Assembly (NCBI RefSeq): GCF_037975245.1
Contig: NC_092576.1
Location: 23,419,111 to 23,483,110, forward strand
Direction: 5' to 3'
DNA: 64,000 nt
Source: Apostichopus japonicus
Taxonomy: Eukaryota; Echinodermata; Holothuroidea; Aspidochirotida; Stichopodidae
This document shows positions 1 to 44,895 of the stretch, piece after piece. The notes beneath the pieces were generated by a model that was not told where the DNA came from, did no database searches, and saw only the letters and a program-made list of their open reading frames with translations. Position 1 is the stretch's first letter. Each line of letters starts with the position of its first letter. A program made the translations under genes and the position numbers.

Positions 1-355
1 TTGATGATGTCCGAGTCAGATATGATCAATCTTAATTTCAAAGGTACCATACTTTCGCTTGTTTGGCATCTATATGGAATGGAACACAAAGAAATCAAAT
101 AAAAGCGGTACTAATTCTCACTGTTGTATTTCATTGTCACATAGTGCTTTAAGACGACTACCTTACTTCCATGATTTGAATGTCATGCCAATGGATAGTA
201 ATAATCCAGGTCTCTAGACTCTCTTTGATGGATTAGTTTAAATATATCTGTCTCCTTTACAATGTATGCCCCCATATACTTTGCAAATCTACTTTCAAAA
301 CATTTTACCAAACAAAAATATCCTTGTTAACTGTTATAAGTTTAATCTTTGCATA

Positions 356-949
356 CTATGCTAAGCCATCAGAATCAGAAATAGTCACAAACATGCTTTT
401 GGAATACTTTGTTCTATCAAATTGGACTGAGATTGTGGATGAATTAAGGACATCAGGGATAACACTCTTCGTAGGTTCTGAGAGAAATGTAATAGTTATA
501 CTTGTCAAATTCTCTACAACAACAGGTAAGCCAAAGAAATGTAGGGAAGCCAAAGGATATATATCCATCTTTTCATACTTATTGGCTAAAGTAACTAGTA
601 TATTCTTTAAGTTGTTAACACTTCGAATGATTCTCTTGAAGAAATTGTGTAACGCTTGGAACCCTCCCGTGGAGACTTGAACTAAAGGTCCAAATAACCT
701 TATTTGTTCTGGGTAATTTTCAGCAAAATGGTGCTTTGATTTCAGTCTAGCCTCAGGAAATGCCATCTTTAGTATCTGTTTGTGTTCCTTTATTTTAGCC
801 TGAAGATATTCAATCATTCCTTCAGTAAAATTAGGGCTGTGAGCCTTTTCAAAAATATATTTGAGTAATAATATCACAGCAAGTACTGGGTCTTGCTCTG
901 GTAGATATAGTCTACCACAAATAATTGGAGGAACCGGAGCAAGGTCCAA
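356..949 (-). CDS. Transposon-like ORF fragment (FGPL-motif family)
   Basis: An uninterrupted 197-residue reading frame. The N-terminal half has an LPEQDP stretch and a helical region, then KSKHHFAENYPEQIRLFGPL, then FQALHNFFKRI and NLKNILVTLANKYEK. This order (pK-HHF, -YP--I--FGPL, FeakH-fFK, NfKNi--TLA) is one I recognise from uncharacterised, multi-copy invertebrate and fish proteins that look transposon-associated. I cannot name the family with certainty. No introns, finger or nuclease domain are visible. It lies downstream of exon 3 of DUF1647 paralogue 1 on the same strand, so it may be a repeat-derived insertion in that gene's last intron, or an exon of a separate gene running off the left edge. 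The methionine at 949 is not a secure start. Confidence 0.4.
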   Translation of the reverse strand: MDLAPVPPIICGRLYLPEQDPVLAVILLLKYIFEKAHSPNFTEGMIEYLQAKIKEHKQILKMAFPEARLKSKHHFAENYPEQIRLFGPLVQVSTGGFQALHNFFKRIIRSVNNLKNILVTLANKYEKMDIYPLASLHFFGLPVVVENLTSITITFLSEPTKSVIPDVLNSSTISVQFDRTKYSKSMFVTISDSDGLA

Positions 950-2479
950 TTTTCAAAATGGTTACCTCCAATACTACCTTTTTTTGTAATTTGTCAATTA
1001 TCTATGGTCTATTTTATAACTGCTAGGCCTAACGTTAGCCAACATTGAAGTCCCATCACACGAAGTTGGGGTAGTAATAATGTTAGATTATTAAATGTTA
1101 TTAAGTTAGTTTACCGTACTAAGTAAAATTACGAAAACTAGACTAACGAGGCAAACCTATATATAAGATACGGGACTAGAGCCACAAACCGAAGTATCAG
1201 TACCTGACGTATCTTTACTTACTTATCATTTCCCTTTTATTTGAACTTCATACCTTACTTTTATATTCCGGACTGATTTAATGCCGGCCAGCTCCGAGCT
1301 CTCTTCTGATCTGCTCATACTCATGTAGAGTATAGTGGGATGGAACAGTGTAGGCTACTTAACGCGCACCTGTTGTTCGTCGCGCGCGTCGTTCTCGAAC
1401 ATTCGGACTATGCAAAACAAGTAATTACATGTTTCTGATAGTTTCAATAATGTTATCGTCAGTTAGATACAACTCTTTGTAAAAAAAATGTTGTAATAGA
1501 AATATATAACAGCTATCAATTTTGACTTATACCGATTTTGCACAGGTTAATTATTCCTTAAAAGTGGATGAAACTTGGCGGGAAAACTGAACTACACGTT
1601 ATGTCAGTTGATACAACACACGTAAAGAGTGTTATGTAAAGCTAACTTGAGCAAAACTCAAACATTGTCAGTAATGTCAACGGGTTATGATTTTTGTGTA
1701 ATGGTGACCTACAACGGTTTAGCTGTGATAACTTTTCCAGCGAGCAAGGTTTTTCAGTGTAGGTGCGTAAATTTTAATGTGCCATGATGTAATCATGCAC
1801 CGCAATTACTACATGTCAGTGGAAAAGTTCTATCTACCGATACTTTGGCGGCCTTTTTAGTTGAATGATATTTGAAGAACACAGCCGGATGCGACCACAA
1901 GAACAGTGTGTTTGCCATTTTCGTTCTAATAAGTTTTCTAGTCAAGGGAAAAGTGTACACAAGAAACATTCTTTTGTCCAAATATAGCTGAAAGAAACAT
2001 CTTATTCCTATTTGTATATATACACAAAAAAACACATTCACTTTTGAGTTTTTTGCAACACCCCCCCCCCCACCTTCCCCTTTCATATTGCCTTTCTTTT
2101 CAAATTGCCATGGTGTCACACACCTTCAAACTTCAACAATATTATTATAAAATACCAATACGCCTAAGTGCAAATAACGAACAGCGTAATGAAATATGCA
2201 GTCGATCACTTAACACTAGCAGCTTTGTAGGTGAAGTGTTGTAATTTTTAGATTTGCTCAAATCATTAAGCTTAGCATATGTAGAAACACTGAAATGTTA
2301 TTATCTAAACAGAGTCATATCACGTTTAACTGTTTTGGAGCATTGTTCGCCATACAAAATAACTGTCGAGTCATTATTAATGATGATTTTATGTTAATTT
2401 ATTCCTCCTGTAGTTTCTAGAATATAAGTAACTCAGTAACTGGCTCTACATCATTCCATGAAAACGAACTGTAACTCAC
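950..2479. other. Non-coding stretch, probably intron
   Basis: I see no supported gene or RNA here. A polyC run lies at about 2060-2073. If paralogue 1 keeps a fourth exon, it must lie to the left of the window, which would make this intronic. Confidence 0.4.
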
Positions 2480-4884
2480 ATTAATGATAACTGGCTTCCA
2501 CGCATACGATCGCAAATGTTTGACATGTTGTGGGTAATTGTTAAATGGAAAGCGTCGAAGTTCGACATCACATAGCTTCCTGACCTGTGTAAACCACAAA
2601 ATACGAGAAACAGTAAGAATACAGAACAATTTGGGAAAGTAATGGACAATGATATCAATGTTCACCATGATGGTCTAATGCACGTGAAGTAGTTTCAGGT
2701 TACAACTGCTACGAAAGTACTTCTGGTATTATGCAGCTCAAATGTGTGGGTCAATACTGAGCAAGATGAATTTCACTCATCGCATCCATCTATGGCGCCC
2801 AGCTCAAAGAGAGGACAGTCCTAGATTCCCTCATCCATTTCTTGTCCCTAAATGGAATGAAATGTATTGATATACTTAATTGCTATTGTTCATCAAGGGG
2901 AAAGAATAAGATGACGATGTCAAGTCGACCTACGAACGTAAAAAAATGCTATTTAATTCCTTGCTGTAAATTTCCTGAACGATAAATCACATATGATATT
3001 GGTCAGGGTTTAGAATTGTTGCAAGCAAGAACAGTGTATTACCGGTGCAGTGTAATATTATGGACTGAACCGAAAGTGTAGAATGATCAGTTTATGCTTT
3101 AATATATACGCAGCTTAATTTTAGAGACTTCTGACAGAATATCGATTTTAATGGTTTGTTATTATGTTTAAGTATAGCAATTCTTGCTACTTTAACGCAA
3201 TAAACTCAGTACATATTTTATTAGCTAGCAAGTGTTTTTCTGCATGACGAAAATCGTCGTCCCGGATGCAAACGTAAGTCCAAATCTGTTAAAGATGCTA
3301 TTCAATTGACTTGATCAATATGTCGATATTGTTAGGTCAATTAACCATGAATAATTCATAAATACATCGTAACATAGTTATATTTATTGCTTCCATGTAT
3401 TTCAAGCCATACGGAGGCGATCACTTTATACGCAGTGTTCTAATTTGCCACTGAAATGTATGAAAGGGACATGACTGGAAGGTAGGTTATCCTAAAATCA
3501 TGTAAAAATCTTATCCTACTAAAATGAATTATTCATATGCCATTATAATTAATAATTTACATAAACATACCGACTTACTTATGACTTCCGTACTTTAGAC
3601 AAATCATAAAAATTACATATTCATCCTTTTCGTTTCATAGTGTTTGACAAGCCCAGATCGTAGACTATTATTCTCTTTCCAGGCATATATTTTTGAGCTG
3701 TTCCGATGTAACCCATCGCTTCTTTGTAGTGATTGTCAGAGAATGCTGTGATGAGGACTAGTCTGTCGTACATTTCGTCTACTGTAAGGACCGACACATC
3801 TAAATCAATGTGTACACCGCCAACGTGTGGTGGTATCGTAGTATTAGGCTGAATCTCCGAGTCATTTCTTCCACGTGTGGGTATATTTATAGCAATCGAT
3901 TCGGCATATCTTCTAAAACCTTAATGGATAGAAATACAATGCAAGTAAGTCTGACAACATTAAAATGCATGCTAATCTTAAAAGATCACTGTAGACACTA
4001 GTGTTTATGTGACAGAGATTGATAAGACTACTGTTATCATTCCATTCCTAAACCAATTGTTTTCTTGGAAATGGTGCATTAAATACTGATCGATTAATTA
4101 AAATAGACCAGAATATACATAGTATTACGTCGGAATGGCAATATTGGAAGAACGAGGGCAGTGACCCCTGGAGATTGGGGAGCCGTGCAAAAATGTCACC
4201 AGTTGTTATAGGAGGTAGATTGGAGTGAATATTGACAGGTAAGAGGAGTCTATTAAATACAAAATCACGTTTGCTGTGATTCACCATAAAAGCCTATTGC
4301 TATTGGAGTTATACTCTAGTAGTAAATGTTGGAAAATGACATTTCAACACCGAAACGTCAATTCATCACTCACGGTAGACATAAATGATTTTATTTTATG
4401 ATGTAAATCGTTCGCAATAACTGCTAGAAGTCACAATTGCAAGACTAATGTTTAGTTTCAGAAATTACCTTTTAAACAACCAGATTCAGACTCATTAATA
4501 ATACGGCTGGATCACTGACTCTAGAACACAAATTAGTATCTTAAATTCTCCAAGAAAAAATTGTTAACGGCGTCTGTAACTTCAGACTACATGTTTAACA
4601 TTCATTAGCAACGGTATTATCATAATTATATACATTATGGAAATATATCGATCAAGAAGCAAGTCGTCTCAAAATCCAATACACCCTTTTAGTTTGAATT
4701 GATAATGCTTGCATATTAATTGCCACAATTGTCATTGAATGTTGATATTATTTACTAATACATTGATGATCTTACCATTTGATTGCACAATTAAAGTTGA
4801 ATATTGCGTAACGTAGAATCCGAAAAAGATTAAAAGCATGATACTGGCGATGAAACTTCGTTTTAAAACTGCAGTGCTGTACAT
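2480..4884 (-). pseudogene. DUF1647-type type II membrane protein, paralogue 1 (damaged or incomplete)
   Basis: Three exons match paralogue 2 at 28.9-33.5 kb. Exon 1 is 4776-4884: 36 residues from MYSTAVLK, a hydrophobic signal anchor (about residues 12-25), ending AATG before gtaag. Exon 2 is about 3626-3919: acceptor attaag, containing [33 protein letters not shown] and [10 protein letters not shown]. Exon 3 is 2480-2584: acceptor ttacacag, [18 protein letters not shown], then gtgagt. DUF1647 proteins are poorly characterised; a Golgi-type glycosyltransferase-like role is only inference from the signal anchor and fold-like motifs. Damage: where paralogue 2 has AAAAG/gtatga after exon 2, this copy reads AAAAGgatga. 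The GT donor is gone and reading through meets TGA within two codons. Exon 4 is not visible. Probably a pseudogene, or a gene using other splicing. Confidence 0.7.
4776..4884 (-). CDS. DUF1647 paralogue 1, exon 1 (signal anchor)
   Basis: This 109-bp exon begins with the ATG at 4884-4882 and ends in phase 1 at a good gtaag donor. Length and phase are identical to exon 1 of paralogue 2 (33375-33483). It encodes a short basic N-terminus (KR at residues 8-9) followed by a hydrophobic segment with IMLLIFFGFYV, typical of a type II membrane anchor. No upstream promoter element is obvious. Confidence 0.7.
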
Positions 4885-4922: not shown

Positions 4923-5814
<892 letters not shown>

Positions 5815-6305
5815 AATATTTCATATTTCATTTCATTTATTTCGTCTATACATAAGAAAAATAGAACAAAGTGGTATAGTATAAACAGTACACTAGAAAA
5901 ACATTGGAAGTTTATCGACCAAAAAATAACAAATAACAATGAAAGAAGGCAACAATTAAGAGTAGAGATAAATAAACATGAGATAATCAATACTCAGTCA
6001 GCGTAGTTTTCAATTAGGTGGGCTTTTAGTTTGCGCTTAAACGTTACATAAGATTTAACATTTTTTATATCATTCGGAAGCACTTTCCAGGTTTTATAGC
6101 AGTAGTTATTCAAGAGTAATTTGCCGTGTTTCGAGTGATGTCTGCCAACTGAAAAATGGGTATTATTTCTCGTACTGTTACGAATATACGCGGAATTACT
6201 GGGATTAACAATATCACTAAAGACACGGAAGAGAATATTGTTGATATACTTATAAATATAGTATTTGGAGTACCAGGCTCCATGAACTGCATAGGATCAC
6301 AATCA

Positions 6306-6773
6306 TTAACAAATTTCATGACCAAGTTTGTTGCCAATGGTTGAGAAATAATCATTGAAAGCATTAGCAATGCCAAAGTCATCAGTCATGGTTGCATTGT
6401 CGTAAGTGATATTATTAACTAAAGAGGTAGAATTCCTTTTTTTGTTGAAAAGTTCATTAAGGACAACCCAAGTTTTGGGGGTCAAGTGCTGCCTAGCCTG
6501 AATGATATATTCGTAGTAGGATGTCTTGGAACAACTGATGGACTTGTTAAGAATACGTCTGTACTGTGCCAAATTTGCTTTCTTTTCTGGTGTCGGGTTC
6601 TTAATAATATATTTACGAAACATGGTGTTCTTGTGACTTATTGACCTTCTAATACCAGTTGTGATCCATGGCTTATTTTTAGATTTCTTTCGAGACATTT
6701 TGACTCGTGGAAAACAGGCATCGTGATTGGAATTTAAGCATAGAAATAAAAGTGTTGTAAGCGTCATTGACAT
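6306..6773 (-). pseudogene. LINE ORF2 linker between endonuclease and reverse transcriptase
   Basis: Contains KPWITTGIRRSI, YRRILNKSI and AFNDYFSTIGNKL, the conserved sequence between endonuclease and RT in CR1/L2-like LINEs. The frame ends at 6306 and the RT core expected next is absent; the following minus-strand sequence corresponds to the extreme C-terminus of ORF2 in another frame. Confidence 0.75.
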
Positions 6774-6886
6774 CCGTTAAGCCATAAATAGAATCTGTAC
6801 CATCGATTGATTGAGTGACTGTCGCAAAAATATTACTGTTGTAGATCCTAACCATTGGTCAAGTCGTATTCCAGTTGATATCAATG

Positions 6887-7339
6887 TCACTGATAATACA
6901 AAAAAAATGGCAAGTGATCACTAATATCACAATATAAATTACCAGAAGTGATATCTGTTGTGTGACCAGTTGGAAAACGAACAAAAATATGATCGATGAG
7001 AGAATTAGAACTCTCAGTAAGTCTGGTAGGTAAAGTTATTACTGGTGTAAAGAGATTGCACCTCATAAGATTAAAATAACTATTTACTGCAGCAATAGAA
7101 TTGATTTTAAGGAGATCAATGTTTATGTCTCCTCCAAATATACACATATCTTTGGACTCAACAGACACTAAAGCAGACTCTAAAGCTTCAATAAAGTGAT
7201 TGATATTACCTGTAGGATGCATGTAACAAACAAAAAACTTGTAGCACTTGTTGTTGCATTTGACATCCAGCCATAAATCTTCGACTTTGCAGTTGTTACA
7301 TTGACAATTTAAGTTACGATTGATTACATTCTTCATCAA
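6887..7339 (-). pseudogene. LINE ORF2 endonuclease domain, partial
   Basis: The reading frame keeps hallmarks of the AP-type endonuclease of CR1/L2/Jockey-like LINEs: VEDLWLDVKC, the catalytic block FGGDINIDLL (usually GDFNIDLL), SLIDHIFVR and the C-terminal SDHLPFF with its catalytic histidine. The first half of the domain is missing: only a GGWHFYKR-like remnant of the GGGVAFYI block is seen upstream at about 7355-7380, before an in-frame stop. This enzyme normally nicks target DNA for target-primed reverse transcription; this copy cannot make a complete protein. Confidence 0.82.
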
Positions 7340-7964
7340 ATTAATTTTAATGAACTAACGCTTATAAAAATGCCACCCCCCTTCATTTAGTGGGCGGGGA
7401 TACAATCTCAAACGCGTAGTCTGGAAAATATGACAAAAAGACTGTGAATGGCAGCGACCTATTTTAGAAAGCATTATAACGTCACAGTGACTGTCATTGT
7501 TATCTACGATTAATCGCCGCTGACCTCCTTGGCGAACAATCGTTGACCATGTAGGATCGAGGTGTGTAGTACTCTGTTCAGTGAAAGCGTTTGTTAAGGG
7601 AATTAATTCGGTGTCCCCAGGCTCTTCACTGCTGGCCGTTTGAGTATTCTGCGTTGAACTAACCAGCTCGGATACACTAGTCCGGGAATTACTGGTGGGT
7701 CTTCCATCGGAGTTGGTCGGCTGAGGCGGATAATTGTTGGGATAATTGCACCTCTTTTGAACAGATGTATTCAACTCAAGTGAGGTTAATATCTTGCCGA
7801 TTTTCCAGAAATTATCTAATTATGTCTTTATCATGGTCATGGTTGACAAGAGCAGCGGTTATGCCCGAAAATGTGGTTTGGAATTCGTCAATTTTGACCA
7901 AAATTGATAACACGTCCGACTGTGGTAATAGGCTCAAGTTACTGGCAGCAAATATGGGTAGATC

Positions 7965-7970
7965 GGCGAC
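7965..7970. repeat. 6-bp target-site duplication, left copy (GGCGAC)
   Basis: GGCGAC lies directly before AGTAGTGT at the left end of the palindromic element and is repeated exactly at 16946-16951 directly after ACACTACT. Removing the element and one copy joins the two LINE ORF1 halves in frame on the minus strand (N-V-A-D-L-P across the site). Confidence 0.93.
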
Positions 7971-8026
7971 AGTAGTGTATAGACCCAGACCGGGGCACAA
8001 GGGGGACCCGATATAGGACGTCAAGT

Positions 8027-8165
8027 GGGACCGGAACTAGGGCAAAATGGACAGTGGGGACCGGAACTAGGGCAAAATGGTCATTGGGGACCCGAACTAG
8101 GGCAAAATGGGCACTCGGGACCCGAACCAGGGCAAAATGGACATTGGGGACCCAAACTAGGGCAT
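8027..8165. repeat. 30-bp subterminal tandem repeats, left arm
   Basis: Units start at 8027, 8057, 8087, 8117 and 8147 (the last partial), each with GGGACC-GAACTAGGGCAAAATGG. They begin 57 bp inside the terminus and mirror 16751-16889. Repeated subterminal motifs often bind the protein acting on a transposon end; here that is inference. Confidence 0.9.
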
Positions 8166-9022
8166 TTCTGGAAAATGAGAACAAAAGCGATGTGTTGTAC
8201 AGTTTTGTTTTTTATTCGAGTGCACCACAGCATATCTTCACATCAAACAAGAAAATATATTGAACAAAAGGATAAGTCAATAGTGGCTTTAGTGACAATA
8301 AACAATAGCGACTCGTCCGTTAGGTAGGATATCGATTTCTGTTTGAGGCAAACAATTACTAACCCCTAAGATCATCGTCCGTTAGCTATTTTCGCGCTCA
8401 GTACACAATGAAACTCAATGTTCTCCTTTGGGGTCTTAACCTTTCCTTTAGGATATATTTTGTCCGGTACAGTAATGTAGCGGGGGACGGATTTTCCAAA
8501 AAATTTAGTACACAATTATATACAAACATACTAGCTACATATGAGAAAAACACTGTATTGAATATTGAAAGGTATCCAACATCAGCACGACACTTTTCTA
8601 AACTCGTTAAAGTCAAAATAGATTTACCTAAAAGTTTCACTTGATCTGATACTAGAAAACGTTAGCACCGAACAGTTCATGAAACGTCACTTTGTAAATA
8701 ATAAAATTAAAAAAGATAAAAGATGCATCGCTAAACACATTTCATAAAATGTATGTCAATTTAAGAAAACACTTCATTTAAAATAAATAAACACATAAAA
8801 TCATGCATGATTATGTTTAGAACAACAACTTGGTAAGCACATGAAATAGTGAACATTGAAATGATCAATCGTTAAAGATATGGATTGATAAAATAATATA
8901 CATCTTGGTCATTACGGTGAACGTCATCGGTAAACCTGCCAACGATATCCGCCATACGTTGTCCACGGTTGTTATTTCTTTCTTCAGATCGATCGTATAG
9001 TCACCCACGTCTCTCTGACAAC

Positions 9023-9511
9023 TTACACATCGTTGTCATCGTCCTCCTCATCATCACTTTCGTATTTGTACTTCAGTCCATGATGTAATATCTTAGACAT
9101 TTCCTTATTGAGTTCGAGCAAGTGCATCCAAGTCTCCACAGCATCATACGTGCGTTCACCATCCCCGTCATCGTGATCTTCACCACCATTATCCTCACTG
9201 CTACTACTGCCAGTACCGTCTGATGTTTCAATCGGCTCATCCGAACTATTTTGTTCATTACTTCCCTCAGTATCCACCAGGTCATCGTCCTCTTCACTGC
9301 GGTCATCGGTCGAATCACTTTCACGATGTTTGCATTTCACGCCGACACGACGCGTATTCACATAACGATCTCTATTACCATTCACACTGTCATCCTCGCT
9401 TTTAGTTACCATCGCTGCCTTTTGATTACTAGGGTGAATGATGGATTCGTGTCGACGAAGATTGAACTGACGGTTAAATCCTTTATTGCATATTTTACAA
9501 CGAAATCTCAT
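9023..9511 (-). CDS. C2H2 zinc finger with acidic tail, left-arm copy
   Basis: A 162-residue ORF. A single classical C2H2 finger lies at the extreme N-terminus: C5, C8, H21 and H26 (C-x2-C-x12-H-x4-H) with the usual hydrophobic positions (F12, L18). The middle and C-terminus are very acidic and serine-rich (DDRSEEDDDLVD, SSSSEDNGGEDHDDGD, ending ESDDEEDDDNDV), with one short helix-like segment (AVETWMHLLELNKEMSKILHH). Transcription would run outward to the left end, with the 142-bp repeat array directly upstream. One finger plus an acidic region suggests DNA binding coupled to recruitment, possibly an activator or end-binding factor of the element; that is inference. I do not recognise it as a known Polinton gene. 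Identical copy in the other arm. Confidence 0.72.
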   Translation of the reverse strand: MRFRCKICNKGFNRQFNLRRHESIIHPSNQKAAMVTKSEDDSVNGNRDRYVNTRRVGVKCKHRESDSTDDRSEEDDDLVDTEGSNEQNSSDEPIETSDGTGSSSSEDNGGEDHDDGDGERTYDAVETWMHLLELNKEMSKILHHGLKYKYESDDEEDDDNDV

Positions 9512-9599
9512 CTTGAGGGTGTGTACTCTTTTGTGTCATTCGACGCAATGAGAGCTATTAAACAAAAATGTGAATGATATACTTTTTGAATATATCAAT

Positions 9600-10110
9600 A
9601 TGAGCACATGCTCAATTGCTCATCTAAACGACTCTCTTTTGCCCACGATGTGCTCTTTTGCTCTTTGAGTCACTCCTTTTATGCTCGCGTGCTCATCACA
9701 TGAACCACATCATGCGTTTTTGTTTTGTTGCTAATTCTAATATGAGCACATGCTCAATTGCTCATCTAAACGACTCTTTTTTGCTCACGGTGTGCTCTTT
9801 TGCTCTTTGAGTCACTCCTTTTGTGCTCACGCGCTCATCACATGAACCACATCATGCATTTTTGTTTTGTTGCTAATTCTAATATGAGCACATGCTCAAT
9901 TGCTCATCTAAACGACTCTTTTTGCTCACGGTGTGCTCTTTTGCTCTTTGAGTCACTCCTTTTGTGCTCGCGTGCTCATCACATGAACCACATCATGCGT
10001 TTTTGTTTTGTTGCTAATTCTAATATGAGCACATGCTCAATTGCTCATCTAAACGACTCTTTTTTGCTCACGGTGTGCTCTTCGAGTCACTCATTTTGTG
10101 CTCATATTTA
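9600..10110. repeat. 142-bp tandem repeat array, left arm
   Basis: Units begin at 9600, 9742, 9884 and 10025 (periods 142, 142, 141; last unit partial). Each is dense in TGCTC/GAGCA pentamers, for example GAGCACATGCTCAATTGCTC. The array sits immediately upstream of the zinc-finger ORF and is mirrored at 14806-15317. Short ORFs through it are by-products of the repeat. Confidence 0.9.
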
Positions 10111-10703
10111 AAAAATGATATAATCCACGGTAAAGGTTCCAGTGAAAATAATATCGTATGAATCCACGGAACTTGCTTCGAAGGTCCGACAAAGGGAAGA
10201 GAGAAAGTATCCCGGTAAATGAATCCGATTGGTCTATGTGTATCAAGTTTTATGTCGTGTACGTGGCACAGGCGAAAGATCCTCGGGTATGGGACCAATC
10301 AAGCCTGCTCGTGCAATGTATCAGCCAAAAACGGATCGACTTGGTTACTTTTCAGCCATGACGCACTTTTCCCGATCAAAATTTGGCACAAAGTGAGAGT
10401 GTCCTACCTAACCACTGTTTGTATACCCCCAATACTTTATCAAGTTCTAATGGAGCACCTTCCTCCCCGAAGACTATTTGACCTTCTGCCCCCTTTACCC
10501 CTCTTTGAAAACGATCGATCGGAACCATTGTCTGCCACCAGCCTAAGATTCCAACACACACAATGAGGCATTATCGATACTTGGGTGAGACTTGGCATGT
10601 ATAATGTGCACATATACGCAGTGTATATAGTGTATTTGTATAACACTGTGTGAGCTATAGGCACAACGTATGAGACCATCGTAACCCATGATTGGATCAT
10701 CCT

Positions 10704-10722
10704 TATTTTGGATAACTGGCTC
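10704..10722. repeat. Target-site duplication of U2-SINE, left arm (5' copy)
   Basis: The 19-bp TATTTTGGATAACTGGCTC lies directly before the SINE and recurs exactly at 10909-10927 directly after it. Confidence 0.93.
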
Positions 10723-10908
10723 GCTTCTCGGCCTTTTGGCTAAGATCATGTGTAGTATCTGTTCTTTTCGGGAATGGTGATGCACACCTGACGATGATCA
10801 CACAGTCACAGTCCCGATGCAAGGGGACTGGGGTTAGAAGCGGATCAGTCGTTCAGTAGTTTGGTTTTCGTGCCCAGGTTCTTTCCTGGGCGACTTTTTC
10901 TTAAAAAG
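10723..10908 (+). mobile_element. U2 snRNA-headed SINE, copy 1 (left arm)
   Basis: A 186-bp retroposed element. Its first ~45 nt are the 5' end of U2 snRNA starting at nucleotide 4: GCTTCTCGGCCTTTTGGCTA, then the branch-site-pairing GTGTAGTATCTGTTC. After that it departs from U2 entirely: a GATGATCACACAG region, a CAGTCCC-type hairpin pairing with GGGGACTG, and a 3' hairpin GCCCAGG/CCTGGGC before a T-rich and A-rich end (GACTTTTTCTTAAAAAG). No canonical U2 Sm site or U2 stem-loops III/IV are seen. A perfect 19-bp target duplication shows LINE-type retroposition. U1/U2-headed SINEs (SINEU) have been described in crocodilians; this one has a different body. Confidence 0.88.
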
Positions 10909-11432
10909 TATTTTGGATAACTGGCTCTTATTAGCCAGGTAAGTTTTCTTTTCTAACCGCAAAGTTTTGGTTTTCACTCGTTTCCCCGTGAAACATTAGT
11001 TTGTCTGTAACTTGCTATTCCCCGGAAAAGTCAACACTAACGAAATTTTTCTTTCCTAGAGTTTTCTCAGTACTACGATAGGGCGAGCATACTTTTTTAT
11101 GTCTAAATAACGATGGTAAAATGGAACTAAGATCACCGTTAGGTCTACAATAAATTTACATTTTACTTGAGTCGTATGGTAAAATGGACCTCAAAAACAC
11201 CTCTTTGTGTACAATAAAGATTGTGCTTGATGATATACACACATCGTACATTTGGATATGGTATTTTTATACGGTCCTAAGTTTAAAATAACGTAGACTA
11301 TATAAAGATCTATGTATTTGGGTAAATATATATATATATATATACAGGCCTATGTTGTAAAGTATCGGAGCCTTTACATGATAGAAGAATATATAACTGA
11401 TCTAGCCTAAATGTATTAAATTAACCAACCTC

Positions 11433-11669
11433 TTAAATTACACCAATACCTAAATGGCCTACCACTATAGTTAAGCCTATACATACGTTAGAAATAAATG
11501 AGACGACACAATGCATGTTTAAGGAGAGTGTTGAGTCTGCTCTTTCTGGAATATTTGATAACCCTTTGTAGAGTCGGTTAAAAAGTTTTAAAAAAAAAGT
11601 ACTGATCAGCTTAAGTCTGACAAGGTCTTCGATGGTTTCTTCTTCCTCCTTAATGTCCTCATCTACCAT
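11433..11669 (-). CDS. Small unrecognised ORF in left arm, possible membrane peptide
   Basis: A 78-residue frame with an acidic start (VDEDIKEEEETIEDL) and a hydrophobic C-terminus. It is present in the other arm (13251-13487), differing at two residues where a homopolymer varies. I recognise no family. Its retention may only reflect recent duplication of the arm, so the coding claim is weak. Confidence 0.2.
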   Translation of the reverse strand: MVDEDIKEEEETIEDLVRLKLISTFFLKLFNRLYKGLSNIPERADSTLSLNMHCVVSFISNVCIGLTIVVGHLGIGVI

Positions 11670-12133
11670 GGTGAGTTTCCGGGAAAATTTCGGCCAGTGT
11701 CTCTATGAAGACATTGTATTCTTTTCCCGTTATCCTCTGCTCCTTCAGGCTCCTTCTCCTCCTCCACATGCCGCAAATACCCAACGGTGGAATACAAATG
11801 CAGGCCACCGGGTGATTTACAATTTGCGTTGGTGTTTCAAAACGTTGACAATAAAAGACACAATATGCTCGTGCTAGCCATCTTCGAGGCTATTGCTCAA
11901 ATGACGTAATCACCACAGAGACATCGTCTTATATAGGGTTCCAAATGTTAATAGCGTTTAGTGTGTACGCCACAGTGTAAGTATAGGTAATGGCTAGTTT
12001 CAAAAATACCGCCAAATCATGTAAGCACCGCCTCTTTACACATGCGCAGTACTCACTCGTACGATGTACTTATGCAACTGATGATGTCATCCCTAAAATT
12101 GATCTAGGACTTGCAACTTTGTTTCCGATCGCG

Positions 12134-12414
12134 AAATTCTTAACCGTAACGTGTCTCATAAACAGCGCGAATATAGGCAAACGGACGATCATCATAGGGG
12201 CTAGTAATTGTTTGCCTCAAACATCGATATCCTACCTAACGGACGAGTCGCTATTGTTATTGTCACTAAAGTCACTATTGACTTATCCGTTTGTTCAAAA
12301 CGTGTACTATTCACATTCGTTGATGTTTTTACAATGTGTAACATATAGCCAGCGGTACAAATGTTTTTACGTACAATAGCGTCAAACGGTGCATAGATAG
12401 TTTTATATATTTAA
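12134..12414. other. Central spacer of the palindromic element
   Basis: 281 bp that are not inverted-repeated with each other. Part of it (about 12163-12298) is a diverged direct copy of subterminal DNA in the right arm (about 16517-16655): shared blocks include TAGTAATTGTTTGCCTCAAA and CCTACCTAACGGACGAGTCG. So the spacer holds a remnant of the element's own end region. Confidence 0.8.
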
Positions 12415-12633
12415 GGGAAAATAAAACAAAGTTGCAAGTCCTAGATCAATTTTAGGGATGGCATCATCAGTTGCATAAGTACATCGTACGAGTGAGTACT
12501 GCGCATGTGTAAAGAGGCGGTGCTTACATGATTTGGCGGTATTTTTGAAACTAGCCATTACCTATACTTACACTGTGGCGTACACACTAAACGCTATTAA
12601 CATTTGGAACCCTATATAAGACGATGTCTCTGT

Positions 12634-12644
12634 GGTGATTACGT
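12634..12644. repeat. Target-site duplication of tRNA-SINE (left copy)
   Basis: GGTGATTACGT flanks the SINE here and at 13006-13016. The left arm has a single uninterrupted copy (reverse complement near 11904-11914), which gives the empty site. Confidence 0.9.
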
Positions 12645-13005
12645 AGAGTGGTAAGGTGGCAGAACGGGAGAGTACACGTCTGCAGTACCTGAGGTCCCTG
12701 GTTCAAACCTCGGTGTCGACACTGACACCAATTTTCACCCCGCTCCTTTCTCGTGGTAGGAAAGTGGCTACACGTGGAAAGCGGTACTCACGTCCTTCGG
12801 AGGGGACGTTAAATTGCGGTCCCGGGAGCAGGACTACACACCCCTGCCTCGTTACTTCAGGGCACTATTCGAAAAGAGAAGGCGAGATTCGCCGGTGTCC
12901 TTCCACGCACAAAAACTTGGAACCTCAATAATTTCCGACTAAGGATTTCCTTAGTCTGCTGAAGCACCTTCGGGTGGAAGCGTAATACGAGGTGTATCAT
13001 CATAT
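12645..13005 (+). mobile_element. tRNA-derived SINE, only in the right arm
   Basis: 361 bp. The head has a tRNA-type internal RNA polymerase III promoter: A box TGGCAGAACGGG (12657-12668) and B box GGTTCAAACCT (12700-12710). The body contains GTCCTTCGGAGGGGACGTTA, a motif that recurs in conserved central domains of metazoan tRNA-SINEs. An 11-bp target duplication flanks it. The homologous point in the left arm lacks it, so insertion followed formation of the palindrome. A 91-residue ORF across it is incidental. Confidence 0.88.
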
Positions 13006-13250
13006 GGTGATTACGTCATTTGAGCAATAGCCTCGAAGATGGCTAGCACGAGCATATTGTGTCTTTTATTGTCAACGTTTTGAAACACCAACGCAAATTG
13101 TAAATCACCCGGTGGCCTGCATTTGTATTCCACCGTTGGGTATTTGCGGCATGTGGAGGAGGAGAAGGAGCCTGAAGGAGCAGAGGATAACGGGAAAAGA
13201 ATACAATGTCTTCATAGAGACACTGGCCGAAATTTTCCCGGAAACTCACC

Positions 13251-13487
13251 ATGGTAGATGAGGACATTAAGGAGGAAGAAGAAACCATCGAAGACCTTGT
13301 CAGACTTAAGCTGATCAGTACTCTTTTTTTTAAACTTTTTAACCGACTCTACAAAGGGTTATCAAATATTCCAGAAAGAGCAGACTCAACACTCTCCTTA
13401 AACATGCATTGTGTCGTCTCATTTATTTCTAACGTATGTATAGGCTTAACTATAGTGGTAGGCCATTTAGGTATTGGTGTAATTTAA
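13251..13487 (+). CDS. Small unrecognised ORF in right arm, mirror of 11433-11669
   Basis: 78 residues, acidic N-terminus and hydrophobic C-terminus, nearly identical to the left-arm ORF apart from a small change at a T-rich tract (STLFFKLF versus STFFLKLF). No recognised domain. Confidence 0.2.
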   Translation: MVDEDIKEEEETIEDLVRLKLISTLFFKLFNRLYKGLSNIPERADSTLSLNMHCVVSFISNVCIGLTIVVGHLGIGVI

Positions 13488-14007
13488 GAGGTTGGTTAAT
13501 TTAATACATTTAGGCTAGTTCAGTTATATATTCTTCTATCATGTAAAGGCTCCGATACTTTACAACATAGGCCTGTATATATATATATATTTACCCAAAT
13601 ACATAGATCTTTATATAGTCTACGTTATTTTAAACTTAGGACCGTATAAAAATACCATATCCAAATGTACGATGTGTGTATATCATCAAGCACAATCTTT
13701 ATTGTACACAAAGAGGTGTTTTTGAGGTCCATTTTACCATACGACTCAAGTAAAATGTAAATTTATTGTAGACCTAACGGTGATCTTAGTTCCATTTTAC
13801 CATCGTTATTTAGACATAAAAAAGTATGCTCGCCCTATCGTAGTACTGAGAAAACTCTAGGAAAGAAAAATTTCGTTAGTGTTGACTTTTCCGGGGAATA
13901 GCAAGTTACAGACAAACTAATGTTTCACGGGGAAACGAGTGAAAACCAAAACTTTGCGGTTAGAAAAGAAAACTTACCTGGCTAATAAGAGCCAGTTATC
14001 CAAAATA

Positions 14008-14193
14008 CTTTTTAAGAAAAAGTCGCCCAGGAAAGAACCTGGGCACGAAAACCAAACTACTGAACGACTGATCCGCTTCTAACCCCAGTCCCCTTGCATC
14101 GGGACTGTGACTGTGTGATCATCGTCAGGTGTGCATCACCATTCCCGAAAAGAACAGATACTACACATGATCTTAGCCAAAAGGCCGAGAAGC
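14008..14193 (-). mobile_element. U2 snRNA-headed SINE, copy 2 (right arm)
   Basis: Exact mirror of copy 1, including the 19-bp target duplication (13989-14007 and 14194-14212). Because both arms carry the same insertion at the same base, it either predates arm duplication or was transferred by gene conversion. It is not an independent insertion. Confidence 0.88.
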
Positions 14194-14805
14194 GAGCCAG
14201 TTATCCAAAATAAGGATGATCCAATCATGGGTTACGATGGTCTCATACGTTGTGCCTATAGCTCACACAGTGTTATACAAATACACTATATACACTGCGT
14301 ATATGTGCACATTATACATGCCAAGTCTCACCCAAGTATCGATAATGCCTCATTGTGTGTGTTGGAATCTTAGGCTGGTGGCAGACAATGGTTCCGATCG
14401 ATCGTTTTCAAAGAGGGGTAAAGGGGGCAGAAGGTCAAATAGTCTTCGGGGAGGAAGGTGCTCCATTAGAACTTGATAAAGTATTGGGGGTATACAAACA
14501 GTGGTTAGGTAGGACACTCTCACTTTGTGCCAAATTTTGATCGGGAAAAGTGCGTCATGGCTGAAAAGTAACCAAGTCGATCCGTTTTTGGCTGATACAT
14601 TGCACGAGCAGGCTTGATTGGTCCCATACCCGAGGATCTTTCGCCTGTGCCACGTACACGACATAAAACTTGATACACATAGACCAATCGGATTCATTTA
14701 CCGGGATACTTTCTCTCTTCCCTTTGTCGGACCTTCGAAGCAAGTTCCGTGGATTCATACGATATTATTTTCACTGGAACCTTTACCGTGGATTATATCA
14801 TTTTT

Positions 14806-15317
14806 TAAATATGAGCACAAAATGAGTGACTCGAAGAGCACACCGTGAGCAAAAAAGAGTCGTTTAGATGAGCAATTGAGCATGTGCTCATATTAGAATT
14901 AGCAACAAAACAAAAACGCATGATGTGGTTCATGTGATGAGCACGCGAGCACAAAAGGAGTGACTCAAAGAGCAAAAGAGCACACCGTGAGCAAAAAGAG
15001 TCGTTTAGATGAGCAATTGAGCATGTGCTCATATTAGAATTAGCAACAAAACAAAAATGCATGATGTGGTTCATGTGATGAGCGCGTGAGCACAAAAGGA
15101 GTGACTCAAAGAGCAAAAGAGCACACCGTGAGCAAAAAAGAGTCGTTTAGATGAGCAATTGAGCATGTGCTCATATTAGAATTAGCAACAAAACAAAAAC
15201 GCATGATGTGGTTCATGTGATGAGCACGCGAGCATAAAAGGAGTGACTCAAAGAGCAAAAGAGCACATCGTGGGCAAAAGAGAGTCGTTTAGATGAGCAA
15301 TTGAGCATGTGCTCATA
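14806..15317. repeat. 142-bp tandem repeat array, right arm
   Basis: Mirror of 9600-10110, with the same GAGCA/TGCTC-rich units, immediately upstream of the right-arm zinc-finger ORF. Confidence 0.9.
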
Positions 15318-15404
15318 TTGATATATTCAAAAAGTATATCATTCACATTTTTGTTTAATAGCTCTCATTGCGTCGAATGACACAAAAGAGTACACACCCT
15401 CAAG

Positions 15405-15893
15405 ATGAGATTTCGTTGTAAAATATGCAATAAAGGATTTAACCGTCAGTTCAATCTTCGTCGACACGAATCCATCATTCACCCTAGTAATCAAAAGGCA
15501 GCGATGGTAACTAAAAGCGAGGATGACAGTGTGAATGGTAATAGAGATCGTTATGTGAATACGCGTCGTGTCGGCGTGAAATGCAAACATCGTGAAAGTG
15601 ATTCGACCGATGACCGCAGTGAAGAGGACGATGACCTGGTGGATACTGAGGGAAGTAATGAACAAAATAGTTCGGATGAGCCGATTGAAACATCAGACGG
15701 TACTGGCAGTAGTAGCAGTGAGGATAATGGTGGTGAAGATCACGATGACGGGGATGGTGAACGCACGTATGATGCTGTGGAGACTTGGATGCACTTGCTC
15801 GAACTCAATAAGGAAATGTCTAAGATATTACATCATGGACTGAAGTACAAATACGAAAGTGATGATGAGGAGGACGATGACAACGATGTGTAA
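15405..15893 (+). CDS. C2H2 zinc finger with acidic tail, right-arm copy
   Basis: Same 162 residues as the left-arm copy: finger C5-C8-H21-H26, then an acidic, serine-rich tail. It reads outward to the right end. The ATG at 15405 is the first in the frame and lies about 88 bp after the repeat array. TATA-like AT-rich sequence (GATATATTCAAAAAGTATAT) lies between array and ORF at about 15320-15340. With two divergent identical genes, the element may make double dose from its two ends; this is inference. Confidence 0.72.
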   Translation: MRFRCKICNKGFNRQFNLRRHESIIHPSNQKAAMVTKSEDDSVNGNRDRYVNTRRVGVKCKHRESDSTDDRSEEDDDLVDTEGSNEQNSSDEPIETSDGTGSSSSEDNGGEDHDDGDGERTYDAVETWMHLLELNKEMSKILHHGLKYKYESDDEEDDDNDV

Positions 15894-16750
15894 GTTGTCA
15901 GAGAGACGTGGGTGACTATACGATCGATCTGAAGAAAGAAATAACAACCGTGGACAACGTATGGCGGATATCGTTGGCAGGTTTACCGATGACGTTCACC
16001 GTAATGACCAAGATGTATATTATTTTATCAATCCATATCTTTAACGATTGATCATTTCAATGTTCACTATTTCATGTGCTTACCAAGTTGTTGTTCTAAA
16101 CATAATCATGCATGATTTTATGTGTTTATTTATTTTAAATGAAGTGTTTTCTTAAATTGACATACATTTTATGAAATGTGTTTAGCGATGCATCTTTTAT
16201 CTTTTTTAATTTTATTATTTACAAAGTGACGTTTCATGAACTGTTCGGTGCTAACGTTTTCTAGTATCAGATCAAGTGAAACTTTTAGGTAAATCTATTT
16301 TGACTTTAACGAGTTTAGAAAAGTGTCGTGCTGATGTTGGATACCTTTCAATATTCAATACAGTGTTTTTCTCATATGTAGCTAGTATGTTTGTATATAA
16401 TTGTGTACTAAATTTTTTGGAAAATCCGTCCCCCGCTACATTACTGTACCGGACAAAATATATCCTAAAGGAAAGGTTAAGACCCCAAAGGAGAACATTG
16501 AGTTTCATTGTGTACTGAGCGCGAAAATAGCTAACGGACGATGATCTTAGGGGTTAGTAATTGTTTGCCTCAAACAGAAATCGATATCCTACCTAACGGA
16601 CGAGTCGCTATTGTTTATTGTCACTACAGCCACTATTGACTTATCCTTTTGTTCAATATATTTTCTTGTTTGATGTGAAGATATGCTGTGGTGCACTCGA
16701 ATAAAAAACAAAACTGTACAACACATCGCTTTTGTTCTCATTTTCCAGAT

Positions 16751-16889
16751 ATGCCCTAGTTTGGGTCCCCAATGTCCATTTTGCCCTGGTTCGGGTCCCG
16801 AGTGCCCATTTTGCCCTAGTTCGGGTCCCCAATGACCATTTTGCCCTAGTTCCGGTCCCCACTGTCCATTTTGCCCTAGTTCCGGTCCC
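16751..16889. repeat. 30-bp subterminal tandem repeats, right arm
   Basis: Reverse complement of the left-arm array (CCATTTTGCCCTAGTTC-GGTCCC units), with one visible substitution against the left arm at the innermost unit. Confidence 0.9.
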
Positions 16890-16945
16890 ACTTGACGTCC
16901 TATATCGGGTCCCCCTTGTGCCCCGGTCTGGGTCTATACACTACT

Positions 16946-16951
16946 GGCGAC
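16946..16951. repeat. 6-bp target-site duplication, right copy (GGCGAC)
   Basis: Matches 7965-7970 exactly and directly follows the terminal ACACTACT. Confidence 0.93.
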
Positions 16952-17223
16952 ATTCACTTCCTTTATCTTGATTATGATGTCTTCCTACTTTTTTTGGCTT
17001 TTTTTTTACCCCCTTTACGTGTAGTGAATTTGAAGGTCACATCCTTGTCTTCAAACATGGGTAGAGAAAATAGCCACTGTTCAGCGTTTTCCACAATTTT
17101 ATCAGAGTAGAAATTGTCACAAATGATTACGATGGTCTCAGTGGGTAGTACTCCGATTTAATTGATAACGTAGCACAACAGTTCATTAGCGATTACGTCA
17201 GATTGCCCAATACACTCTGCCAT
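16952..17223 (-). pseudogene. LINE ORF1, N-terminal part (split by the palindromic element)
   Basis: Reading leftward from the ATG at 17223-17221: MAECIGQSDVIANELLCYVI, an in-frame stop, then VIICDNFYSDKIVENAEQWL, FEDKDVTFKFTTRKGGKKKA and, after a frameshift, IIIKIKEVN, continuing across the insertion into ADLPIFAASNLSLLP at 7964. This ORF1 type (FYS-eI--A---L, then D-I-----D---lP-Fva-dLs-lP) is one I associate with CR1/L2-like LINEs of marine invertebrates and fish. Stop and frameshift make it inactive. Confidence 0.72.
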
Positions 17224-25896: not shown

Positions 25897-26605
25897 CAGT
25901 GGCGGCGGAACCGGGGGGGGCTTGGGGGGAGGGGGTAGGTGCGGAGCATTGCAGCCAGCATTCAAACGATATGATAATTGATTGTCTGTATCATGCCTCA
26001 TCGAATATTAGTGTTTTAAATAAGAGTGTAATAAGCTAAACGCTACACTCATCAAAATTTGCGTTTACACTACGAGTACACGCAAGGCGTGGAACATGGC
26101 TCTATTTGTTTAAACGCAATCAATTATTAAAAGAACAAAAACAAAACATTAGCATTTCACCTGTACTGTATATACATGCATTCGTGACAGTGCTTGGTTC
26201 ATAGAAATTTGTGGCAACTGCACATGGTTTTGGAATTACCCATTTGTTGACATTAAGAAATGCTTTCTGTTTTTTCTTATGACTTTTATTTAATTATTGC
26301 ATTTAATTGCAAGTAGTAATTTACTACACTCAAAAACGTCATTGCGAGTACACTACGAGTAATAGCTACTCTCTTAAAACACCATCGAATATACAAATTA
26401 CAATGTTTTTACAGATTTTTACGTGCAATCTGAGAAATTGCAGGCTTGAGACCCATATTTTAGGGCTAGGTATTCGCAGCACCCGGGAAATGCCGTTTCC
26501 GGCCATCTGGGGGTTTGAAAAACCCAAAATTTTCTTCTACGCTCCGCGCCAACCGATGGTGGCGCTCCGCTTAGATAGTCTCCACGCATTAGCTGAGATG
26601 TCATA
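25897..26605 (+). mobile_element. Truncated hAT-type element
   Basis: Starts CAGTGGCGGCGGAACCGGGG, the same end as the complete copy at 34569-35823, and stays alignable with it in inverse orientation to about 26600 (shared TGTATCATGCCTCATCGAAT; CAATCTGAGAAATTGCAGGC). The far inverted end is missing and no 8-bp duplication can be found. Lacks the nested insertion present in the other copy. Confidence 0.72.
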
Positions 26606-34568: not shown

Positions 34569-35823
34569 CAGGCGCGGCGGAACGGGAAAATTATTGGGGG
34601 GGCTAATATGTGGAGACTATCTAAGCGGAGCGCCACCATCGGTTGACGCGGAGCGTACAAGAAAATTTTGGGTTTTTCAAACCCCCCAGATGGCCGGAAA
34701 CGGCACTTCCCGAGTGTTTTATGCTGCGAATACCTAGCCCTAAAACATGGGTCTCAAGCCTGCAATTTCTCAGATTGCACGTAAAATCTGTAAAAACATT
34801 GTAATTTGTATATTCGTTTGTTGTTTTAAGAGAGTAGCTATTACTCGACGTGTACTAGCAAAGACGTTTTTGAGTGTAGTAAATTACTACTTGCAATTAA
34901 ATGCAATAATTACAAGGGCGTCAGAAGCTATTTTTGATTGGTACGGCGGTTCAGAGTGTGGCCAACTATCATAATTATCGGGGGGACGTTTGGTAGGTCA
35001 AACTACGCTACGCGCCACCATGGTTGGCGCGTAGCGTAATGGAGAAAGTTTTGAAAATATGCCTCCCAGATTGCAGGAAATGGCACTTCCCGAGCTTGAA
35101 AACAAGACCCCTGCCATGCCAGAGTAGTCACATTTAGCCTACTTGCCGTCATCATTATTGAAAATTATTGAAACATATACCTCCGAGATTTTTTTCCCCC
35201 ATTTTTTAGTCCTACTTTTTTTTTTTTTTGCGTCGTGAATATTGGTCCGGCGTTCGCCGGACCTACCCGTACCGGCTCCGACGCCCCTGAATTAAATAAA
35301 TGTCATAAGAAAAAACAGAAAGCATTTCTTAATGTCAACAAATGGGTAATTCCAAAACCATGTGCAGTTGCCAACAAATTTCGATGCCCTAGCACTGTCA
35401 TCATGTCATGAATGCATATACCCTATACAGTACAGGTGAAATGCTAATATTGTGTTTTTGTTCGTTTAATAATTGATTGCGTTTAAACATAAAGCCATGT
35501 TCCACGCCTTGCGTGTACTCGTTGTGTAAACGCAAATGTTGATAAGTGTAGCGTTTAGCTTATTACCGTCTTATTTAAAACACTAATATTCGATGAGGCA
35601 TGATACAGACAATCAATTATCATATTTAATTATTACACCTATGTAGTATACGTGTGCATCGGACAGATCGACAAGTATGCATTAAAAAATGGGCAGATGC
35701 ACGTTTCGGAGCCTTGGTAAATATTGGGGGGGTTATCATGCATTTTCCCCCTCAACTTTTTCATTGGGGGGCTGAGCCCCCCCCCCCCCCCCTCAAGCCC
35801 CCCCCCCGGTTCCGCCGCCACTG
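34569..35823 (-). mobile_element. hAT-type non-autonomous element, complete
   Basis: 1,255 bp with inverted ends CAGGCGCGGCGGAACGGG (left) and the complement of CAGTGGCGGCGGAACCGGGG (right). A perfect 8-bp duplication TGCATGAC lies at 34561-34568 and 35824-35831, the signature of hAT transposition. No transposase. It contains a nested element at 34913-35289 and polyC runs near the right end. Confidence 0.88.
34913..35289. mobile_element. Small nested DNA transposon
   Basis: 377 bp inside the hAT copy. Ends are CAAGGGCGTCAGAAGC and the complement of CAGGGGCGTCGGAGCC. AATTA is duplicated on both sides (34908-34912, 35290-35294). The truncated hAT copy near 26290 has the uninterrupted site. It contains an internal palindrome (ACGCTACGCGCCAACCATGG-type, about 35009-35038). 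Family not certain; the duplication length of 5 bp is unusual. Confidence 0.75.
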
Positions 35824-44827: not shown

Positions 44828-44831
<4 letters not shown>

Positions 44832-44892
<61 letters not shown>

Positions 44893-44895
44893 GTA

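Follow-up and report, generated by a model that had tools for sequence, protein, structure and literature searches.

The mode of replication of Polintons (Mavericks) has been inferred from the Polinton polymerase and from adenoviruses. Adenovirus symmetric recombinants, or defective genomes with inverted ends, are palindromes of a protein-primed replicon that carry the same viral end twice, and these molecules have been seen as the DNA of virions grown in culture rather than as a lineage of integrated copies. To our knowledge, Galileo/Foldback elements do not use protein-primed replication. Vertebrate Mavericks carry the end motif 5'-(AGT)2//(ACT)2-3' and 6-bp target-site duplications, and the intact elements of 12.7-24.6 kb have TIRs of 46-1,447 bp, with a mean of 402 bp (PMC8097293). 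According to the available part of PMC3573991, Galileo/Foldback of Drosophila belongs to the P superfamily, with 7-bp duplications and TIRs of up to ~1.26 kb, and exchange between copies has been proposed for Galileo. No palindromic Polinton was found in the literature searched.

The DNA analysed here is a stretch of 64,000 nucleotides of Apostichopus japonicus (hereafter the window), which contains an element of 8,975 bp at 7971-16945 with 92.7% of its length paired in inverted arms. It resembles a Polinton/Maverick (polintovirus) in its end motif, its 6-bp duplications and its coexistence in one genome with full-length partners that carry core genes, but unlike in vertebrate Mavericks, the inverted arm occupies ~4.15 kb of a 9-kb element that lacks core genes. 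As in Galileo/Foldback, whose non-autonomous copies are little more than long TIRs with internal repeats and exceed the nearly complete copies in number, the palindromic form is the commoner one; the two differ in enzyme class and in the length of the duplication, 7 bp versus 6 bp (PMC3573991, available part). The element is also similar to the AAV snapback subgenomes, which are self-complementary defective genomes derived from one end of a linear genome and replicated by a helper; however, AAV is a single-stranded parvovirus with hairpin ITRs, and its subgenomes occur in particles rather than as fixed genomic insertions (PMC8235507, available part). The ends, arms and centre of the element were located as follows:

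7965-7970, left target-site duplication GGCGAC, 6 bp, a perfect match to the right copy
7971-12124, forward strand, left inverted arm of 4,154 bp, starting AGTAGTGTATAGACCC
12125-12423, unpaired centre of 299 bp, with an arm/centre junction common to the 8 palindromic copies
12424-16945, reverse strand, right inverted arm, made up of arm sequence, a 360-bp insert and the insert's 12-bp duplication, terminating ACACTACT
12633-12644 and 13005-13016, the 12-bp duplication TGGTGATTACGT of the insert
12645-13004, one-sided insert of 360 bp, right arm only, flanked by the duplication
16946-16951, right target-site duplication GGCGAC, 6 bp

The sequence-only reading had described a near-total palindrome between GGCGAC duplications, and both the duplications and the termini, which are AGTAGTGTATAGACCC and its reverse complement, proved exact. 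Its arms of 4.16 kb were borne out for the left side and for their inverted orientation, whereas the right arm is interrupted by the one-sided insert, and its spacer of 281 bp had to be corrected to 299 bp. The alignment of the two arms of the window copy comprised one block of 3,945 columns at 99.77% and another of 221 columns at 99.55%, with 6 substitutions and 1 gap opening in 4,166 aligned columns. The longest inverted match in 20 shuffles was 250 bp, far below the observed arms; the shuffles were made by swaps that keep dinucleotides and probably mixed the sequence only in part. By reading, the 360-bp insert is SINE-like without a family match: ARAGORN found no tRNA in window 7900-17000, and Rfam gave U2 matches only. 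A genome search with the joined flanks of the window element returned nothing beyond the left and right halves of this locus (2 of 2 candidates). The target is therefore single-copy, and it offers no paralogous empty site for comparison.

The outer 300 bp of the element gave at least 78 matches in the genome (40 of 45 candidates scored), so the further copies that the earlier reading had proposed to look for do exist. The exact-terminus search detected 38 ends; 12 of them had no partner in the list, and 4 of these 12 lay in L025, L026, L027 and L029, loci that were compared by similarity only. Copies with altered termini escape the pattern. The two-ended copies found in this way numbered 13, namely 8 palindromes, 2 full-length elements and 3 short non-palindromic copies (L021, L022 and L030), so that the palindromic form outnumbered the full-length form by 8 to 2. 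All 13 had AGTAGTGTATNGACC ends and perfect 6-bp duplications, the length given in the sequence-only reading, and the Polinton ends AGTAGTGTAT...ATACACTACT were present in the inverted repeats of the window element and its relatives. At C14:16254982-16256572, an 88-92% match to one arm was also seen.

The 8 palindromic loci were spread over five contigs (C2, C3, C7, C16 and C19), and an identical arm/centre junction was found in all of them (40 of 52 candidates scored in the junction search). This one common centre, which like the co-evolution of the arms described below became visible only through the genome copies and went beyond the earlier reading, indicates a single origin. The copies have since diverged in structure: the centre is deleted on one side in L010, L013, L016 and L020, L011 bears an extra duplicated 1.8-kb end, and in 3 of the 8 palindromes the terminal array is longer at one end than at the other.

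Full-length relatives with polymerase B and a retroviral-type integrase between the same termini, which the sequence-only reading had proposed to look for, were found in the same genome. The two elements of 18.3 and 18.8 kb (L014/L015 and L018/L019) have AGTAGT termini and 6-bp duplications as in the palindromes, and matched DNA_pol_B_2 in two separate pieces (9.1e-23 and 2.2e-8). By these matches the polymerase is of family B, with putative protein priming. An rve integrase (1e-12) with a chromodomain was present in L015 and L019, and an A32-type ATPase was detected in the full-length relatives including L019 (8.1e-7). Their protease, including that of L019, showed weak cysteine-protease matches to viral S273R (1.6e-4) and chlamydial ChlaDub2 (2.4e-4). 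The AlphaFold2 model of the capsid protein, which had no sequence match in the PDB, was compared by Foldseek and resembled the capsids of Sputnik (E 4.4e-18, query TM 0.66), PBCV-1 (E 2.8e-17, query TM 0.60) and mavirus (E 2.5e-14, query TM 0.56), and thus a double-jelly-roll-like capsid protein is predicted for the full-length relatives. A 264-aa ORF without a family match is a putative penton; PHROGs gave no hit to this ORF, the capsid ORF or the protease ORF. Since the C-terminal polymerase match of L015 is divided between two frames, the full-length Polintons are at present only candidate helpers.

In tblastn searches, the three polymerase pieces and the integrase had no match in the window element or the other palindromes, the ATPase, capsid and 264-aa queries were blank in 8 of 8 palindromes, and of the protease only the last 31 codons were detected. 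Because the core enzymes are without a match, the element was classed as a non-autonomous derivative and not as a Polinton proper; both its ends and its internal right-end sequence recur in a full-length element of the same genome. Eight palindromes with target-site duplications imply past mobility, and we infer that the enzymes came from the full-length elements. The sequence within the arms and the centre comprised the following features:

7971-8170, forward strand, terminal array of ~30-bp repeats, extent approximate, common to the TIRs of full-length Polintons
8875-8967, reverse strand, Polinton protease 3' end in the left arm, last 31 codons (128-158), 100% amino acid identity to L019
9023-9511, reverse strand, 162-aa ORF with one C2H2 zinc finger, left arm
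9597-10082, tandem repeats of ~142 bp, left arm
10720-10814, forward strand, U2 snRNA-derived sequence, left arm (Rfam RF00004, 57.3 bits)
12164-12347, centre piece like TIR-interior sequence of relatives (L021 86%, L022 90%, L029 85%, slightly longer stretch)
12383-12424, centre piece like left-end-proximal sequence of L022 (element 1783-1825) and of the full-length Polintons L014 and L018
14102-14196, reverse strand, U2 snRNA-derived sequence, right arm
14834-15319, tandem repeats of ~142 bp, right arm
15405-15893, forward strand, 162-aa zinc-finger ORF, right arm
15949-16041, forward strand, Polinton protease 3' end in the right arm, same 31 codons
16746-16945, reverse strand, terminal array of ~30-bp repeats at the other end, extent approximate

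The protease 3' end in both arms identifies each end of the palindrome as a Polinton right end. The last 31 codons were found in every arm of the 8 palindromes and also in L021 and L022, and L030 keeps the last 95 codons (86%). The 162-aa zinc-finger ORF was uninterrupted in 17 of 17 full-length rows, after two split rows, those of the L013 left arm and of L021, had been dropped. It was considered as a selected gene and rejected; the distinct changes comprised 3 synonymous and 18 non-synonymous ones, a per-site ratio of 1.38 that gives no sign of purifying selection. Its only relatives among 26 candidates were 3 A. japonicus proteins, and a 99% match with 91% coverage is annotated on a 604,795-base A. 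japonicus contig with BSL78 locus tags. The repeat containing the U2-derived sequence recurs in the window at 43585-43777.

Comparison of the arms among the 8 palindromes revealed that all 16 were closest to their own partner. The divergence averaged 0.103% within copies and 1.088% between copies (112 pairs, minimum 0.421%), and none of 200,000 random pairings was equally close. Since partner arms are the nearest relatives in all 8 copies, these results indicate that the arms have been copied from one another. Consistently, of 48 two-allele substitutions confined to a single copy, 37 occurred in its two arms alike and 11 in just one of them. The direction of the 37 both-arm changes (16 AT>GC and 12 GC>AT) favours neither route of homogenisation. 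In L009, the outer arm was homogenised (14 both-arm and 1 one-arm changes) but the inner ~1.4 kb was not (0 and 12); without L009, the counts were 32 and 7 for the outer and 10 and 7 for the inner part, so the polarity is driven by L009, and the boundary was set after this copy had been inspected. The arms differed at 1 of 3,769 columns in L016, 2 of 4,143 in L017 and 2 of 3,006 in L020. The arm tree placed L021 and L022 amid the palindromes, at weakly supported forks, which may reflect exchange between palindromic and non-palindromic forms.

Taken together, the element is a non-autonomous Polinton, probably a snap-back palindrome of the right end whose arms are rewritten from each other. The first step would have been the loss of the core, leaving a non-palindromic mini-Polinton of the kind seen in L021, L022 and L030. 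A strand started at the right end during protein-primed replication would then have extended nearly to the far end before it folded back and served as its own template; the product would be a palindrome with a right end on either side and the loop as its 299-bp centre. With two working ends, the palindrome could then have been copied and inserted by polymerase and integrase supplied in trans from full-length Polintons, and would have become the commonest two-ended form found. Finally, a single strand would fold into a 4-kb hairpin in which the sequence of one arm, possibly beginning with its outer part, is replaced by a copy of the other, and the arms would thereby evolve jointly within each copy. 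The sequence-only reading had likewise put forward a nearly all-TIR Polinton derivative, with which the full-length relatives and the protease remnants agree, and snap-back of one end, which is the best-supported origin given two right ends and a centre with far-end sequence, though still an inference. The centre pieces are rearranged relative to L021 and L022, with ~955 bp of theirs absent, and the 57 bp across the arm/centre junction gave chance-level matches only in the 12 loci searched; the fold-back is thus not readable from one clean junction. A 10-11-bp hairpin where the arm departs from L021/L022 was considered as a suggestive snap-back point and set aside, its second half being absent in the palindromes.

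The similarity of the arms is best explained by either later replication or chromosomal gene conversion. Conversion between close inverted repeats after insertion, the process that keeps the arms of Y-chromosome palindromes alike, stands somewhat short of an even chance; the patchy tracts of L009 and a distance of only ~300 bp between the arms of the least-deleted copies are in keeping with it, but the 360-bp insert of the window element has been neither erased nor copied, and the one-sided centre deletions have stayed in place. Moreover, the nearly identical arms of L016, L017 and L020 coexist with array lengths that vary between copies, as expected if the arms were already alike on arrival. 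As for the palindrome itself, it is unlikely to stem from recombination or end-joining of two inverted copies (a head-to-head nested insertion with deletion). The rearranged centre pieces and the extra end of L011, which demonstrates that end rearrangements happen, would suit such joining; however, the two starting arms would then have differed, yet partners are nearest relatives (later homogenisation could mask this), and the far-end sequence in the centre comes from the same type of element, which is what a snap-back loop would give.

Palindromes are difficult to assemble, and the structure was read from the assembly, but an artefact of fold-back chimeric reads is very improbable, as the palindromes occupy eight loci spread over five contigs, every one bounded by a perfect 6-bp duplication of its own; the copies differ in SNPs and deletions, and the window element has a one-sided insert and single-copy flanks. 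The protein match on the BSL78 contig of the same species supports the arm, though not the palindrome. A new transposon type that is Polinton-like at its ends only, also raised in the sequence-only reading, found no support and can hardly be the case. The two full-length Polintons contained no match to the 162-aa ORF or to much of the arm, but the first 15 bases and the TIR are shared, the protease 3' end lies in the same place, and collinear pieces occur at arm 2175-2402 and 3509-3627. Intermediates with the same ends exist (L021, L022 and L030). No transposase family, P-type included, was matched in Pfam by the element's ORFs of at least 100 aa, and the 6-bp rather than 7-bp duplication likewise separates the element from Foldback/Galileo.

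A palindrome family with co-evolving arms constitutes a natural experiment on Polinton replication, and its copies may record how Polintons replicate. New insertions are predicted to arrive with identical arms, and the divergence of the arms could serve as a clock of insertion age, as LTR divergence does for retrotransposons. The palindromic copies would also supply the genome with long hairpins. With 8 of the 13 two-ended copies, the family would be what snapback defective genomes are among viruses, here in an animal and fixed as a transposon lineage that has been successful. Tentatively, the copies may form a self-sustaining 'all-terminus' satellite lineage, giant one-end hairpins that parasitise full-length Polintons in the manner of defective-interfering genomes, with arms rewritten from the ends inward at each replication. 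If this is true, the insertions directly document hairpin-based, end-initiated Polinton replication in an animal germ line.

The element was bounded by the duplication GGCGAC on both sides of window 7971-16945, as claimed by the sequence-only reading. Alignment of the arms paired element positions 1-3945 with 5035-8975 (3,945 columns, 99.77% identity) and, further inward, 3934-4154 with 4454-4674 (221 columns, 99.55% identity). The unpaired centre was 299 bp, and the previously proposed spacer of 281 bp was slightly too short. An insert of 360 bp (window 12645-13004), overlooked in that reading, was confined to the right arm and flanked by its own 12-bp duplication; it looks like a SINE, and searches gave no assignment of its class. 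A repeat beginning with U2 snRNA-derived sequence was mirrored in both arms (window 10724-10914 and 14002-14192; both copies matched Rfam RF00004) and recurred outside the element (43585-43777). Elsewhere in the window, a self-complementary MITE-like repeat family of ~190 bp was observed (47188-47383, 44822-45005 and 45081-45266; one 94% palindromic), together with two ~300-bp stretches repeated inverted at 91-93% (25969-26593 and 34602-35625) and short tandem direct repeats (29504-30009, 51575-51816 and 62960-63230).

The genome (671.6 Mb, 35 contigs) was searched for further copies, as the sequence-only reading had proposed. They do exist: the outer 300 bp of the element gave at least 78 matches (40 of the 45 candidates scored). 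The exact terminus pattern, which misses copies with altered termini, was found at 38 ends as against 4 for a control pattern, and 26 of these paired up into 13 two-ended copies. All 13 were flanked by perfect 6-bp duplications; the duplication length, a point on which the earlier reading could have failed, was thus the same in every two-ended copy found by exact terminus.

Two-ended copies found by exact terminus, with their duplications (slash pairs denote one copy)
Palindrome, window copy: GGCGAC
Palindrome L009: ATCCTC
Palindrome L010: CCTTGG
Palindrome L011/L012: GGCCGG
Palindrome L013: ACCTAG
Palindrome L016: ATTGCA
Palindrome L017: GTACAC
Palindrome L020: TTCGTC
Full-length L014/L015, 18.3 kb: TACATT
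Full-length L018/L019, 18.8 kb: ACGGCC
Non-palindromic L021, 8.1 kb: TAGGTC
Non-palindromic L022, 7.2 kb: GAGTAA
Non-palindromic L030, 2.6 kb: TGCTAC

An inner-arm probe (23 of 23 candidates scored) matched the eight palindromes, L021 and L022 at 96-99%, two places with a single arm match each (89 and 92%), and short stretches. Accordingly, palindromes outnumber every other two-ended form found, and the two more distant relatives have one arm match each. The arm sequence of L021 and L022 was ~98% identical to that of the palindromes, and their outermost ~200-290 bp differed (AGTAGTGTATTGACCC), as would be expected had Polinton subfamilies swapped termini. Two Polinton-related loci 3.7 Mb apart on contig C11, L023 (11411000-11420000) and L024 (7685000-7694000), had identical match sets, containing fragments of two full-length-copy ORFs and part of the zinc-finger ORF.

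The two full-length relatives are Polintons. Polymerase B and a retroviral-type integrase, which the sequence-only reading had suggested looking for, were both found: DNA_pol_B_2 in two separate pieces (9.1e-23 and 2.2e-8; in L015 the C-terminal match was divided over two frames) and an rve integrase with a chromodomain. An A32-type ATPase was also present. The protease showed weak cysteine-protease matches (ASFV S273R, 1.6e-4; ChlaDub2, 2.4e-4), and we label it adenovirus-type, as is usual for Polintons. The capsid protein of L019 was 100% identical over its length to an Apostichopus japonicus protein. Its match P0001 (445 aa, 100% identical) was modelled by AlphaFold2; the model (mean pLDDT 85.9, 29-row alignment) matched the capsids of Sputnik (E 4.4e-18), PBCV-1, iridovirus and mavirus with query TM-scores of about 0.5-0.66. 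A 264-aa ORF, for which a search for a family match gave none, is a putative penton. In vertebrate Mavericks (PMC8097293), 5'-(AGT)2//(ACT)2-3' is the commonest end motif, with duplications of 6 bp and TIRs of 46-1,447 bp.

The absence of core genes from the palindromes was borne out, since tblastn with the integrase, ATPase, capsid, putative penton and polymerase pieces matched none of the eight (E 1e-4), nor did the polymerase pieces at E 0.01. What the palindromes do contain is a fragment resembling a C2H2 ORF from the left half of the full-length copies (46-50% over 32-35 aa) and, in every arm, the final 31 protease codons (100% amino acid identity) adjoining the TIR, an arrangement that the protease 3' end also has in the right ends of L015 and L019. 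Arm positions 2175-2402 and 3509-3627 were collinear with the left half of L014 and L018 (74-82%), and the centre contained a TIR-interior piece and a second piece that adjoins the left end in L022 and the full-length copies. Taken together, these matches give a layout that, followed from either end, starts at a Polinton right end, crosses a large core deletion, comes close to the left end and returns to a right end. The right half from window 12383 was collinear with L022 1783-6677, barring ~955 bp missing here and the SINE-like insert. L030 retained the last 95 protease codons (86%) and would represent a stage with more right-end sequence kept. In L021 and L022, a perfect hairpin of 10-11 bp was observed around arm position 4110-4140, where the palindrome arm diverges from both.

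The arm-centre junction, at arm position 4154, was common to all eight palindromes (40 of 52 candidates scored in one search), which share one origin. Near the centre, L010, L013, L016 and L020 carried extra one-sided deletions, and L011 and L013 had an inverted repeat in common within the centre; in L011/L012 the left end was also directly duplicated over 1.8 kb. The paired fraction in chained alignments was 52-97%, the low values of L010 and L011 being partly due to a simple chaining rule, as further arm matches exist there.

The arms of each copy co-evolve. Over three arm pieces shared by all copies (~1,720 sites), partner arms differed by 0-5 substitutions, whereas the first arms of different palindromes differed by 8-28. 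Both arms grouped in the tree for all eight copies, with varying support. The own partner was the nearest row for 16 of 16 arms; mean divergence was 0.103% within and 1.088% between copies, and none of 200,000 random pairings was as close as the true partners. The 63 variable columns comprised 37 private both-arm, 11 private one-arm, 13 shared by several copies and 2 multi-allelic. Terminal array lengths were equal at the two ends in five of the eight palindromes and unequal in L009, L010 and L011.

Over the longer arm, tandem repeats excluded, the outer part had 46 private changes in both arms and 8 in one arm, as against 10 and 19 for the inner part, indicating that homogenisation works in tracts, which perhaps start from the element ends. 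The contrast was driven mainly by L009 (outer 14/1, inner 0/12; Fisher 7.5e-7), after whose inspection the boundary was set; the remaining copies gave 32/7 and 10/7. The pattern is equally compatible with a folded hairpin on which the outer arm is rewritten and with a chromosomal conversion tract.

Palindromic recombinants are known in adenoviruses. AAV snapback subgenomes replicated with helper functions (PMC8235507) and Galileo, whose copies are almost all TIR and for which inter-copy exchange was proposed (PMC3573991), are further precedents. Among the titles and abstract beginnings listed by a literature search, with most subscription papers outside its scope, none described a palindromic Polinton, and an earlier description may exist. 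Most likely, the palindrome has a snap-back origin, in which a core-deleted mini-Polinton was being copied and a strand primed at its right end, presumably by protein, would have folded back on nearing the far end. The resulting palindrome would later have been copied and inserted in trans by the enzymes of full-length Polintons.
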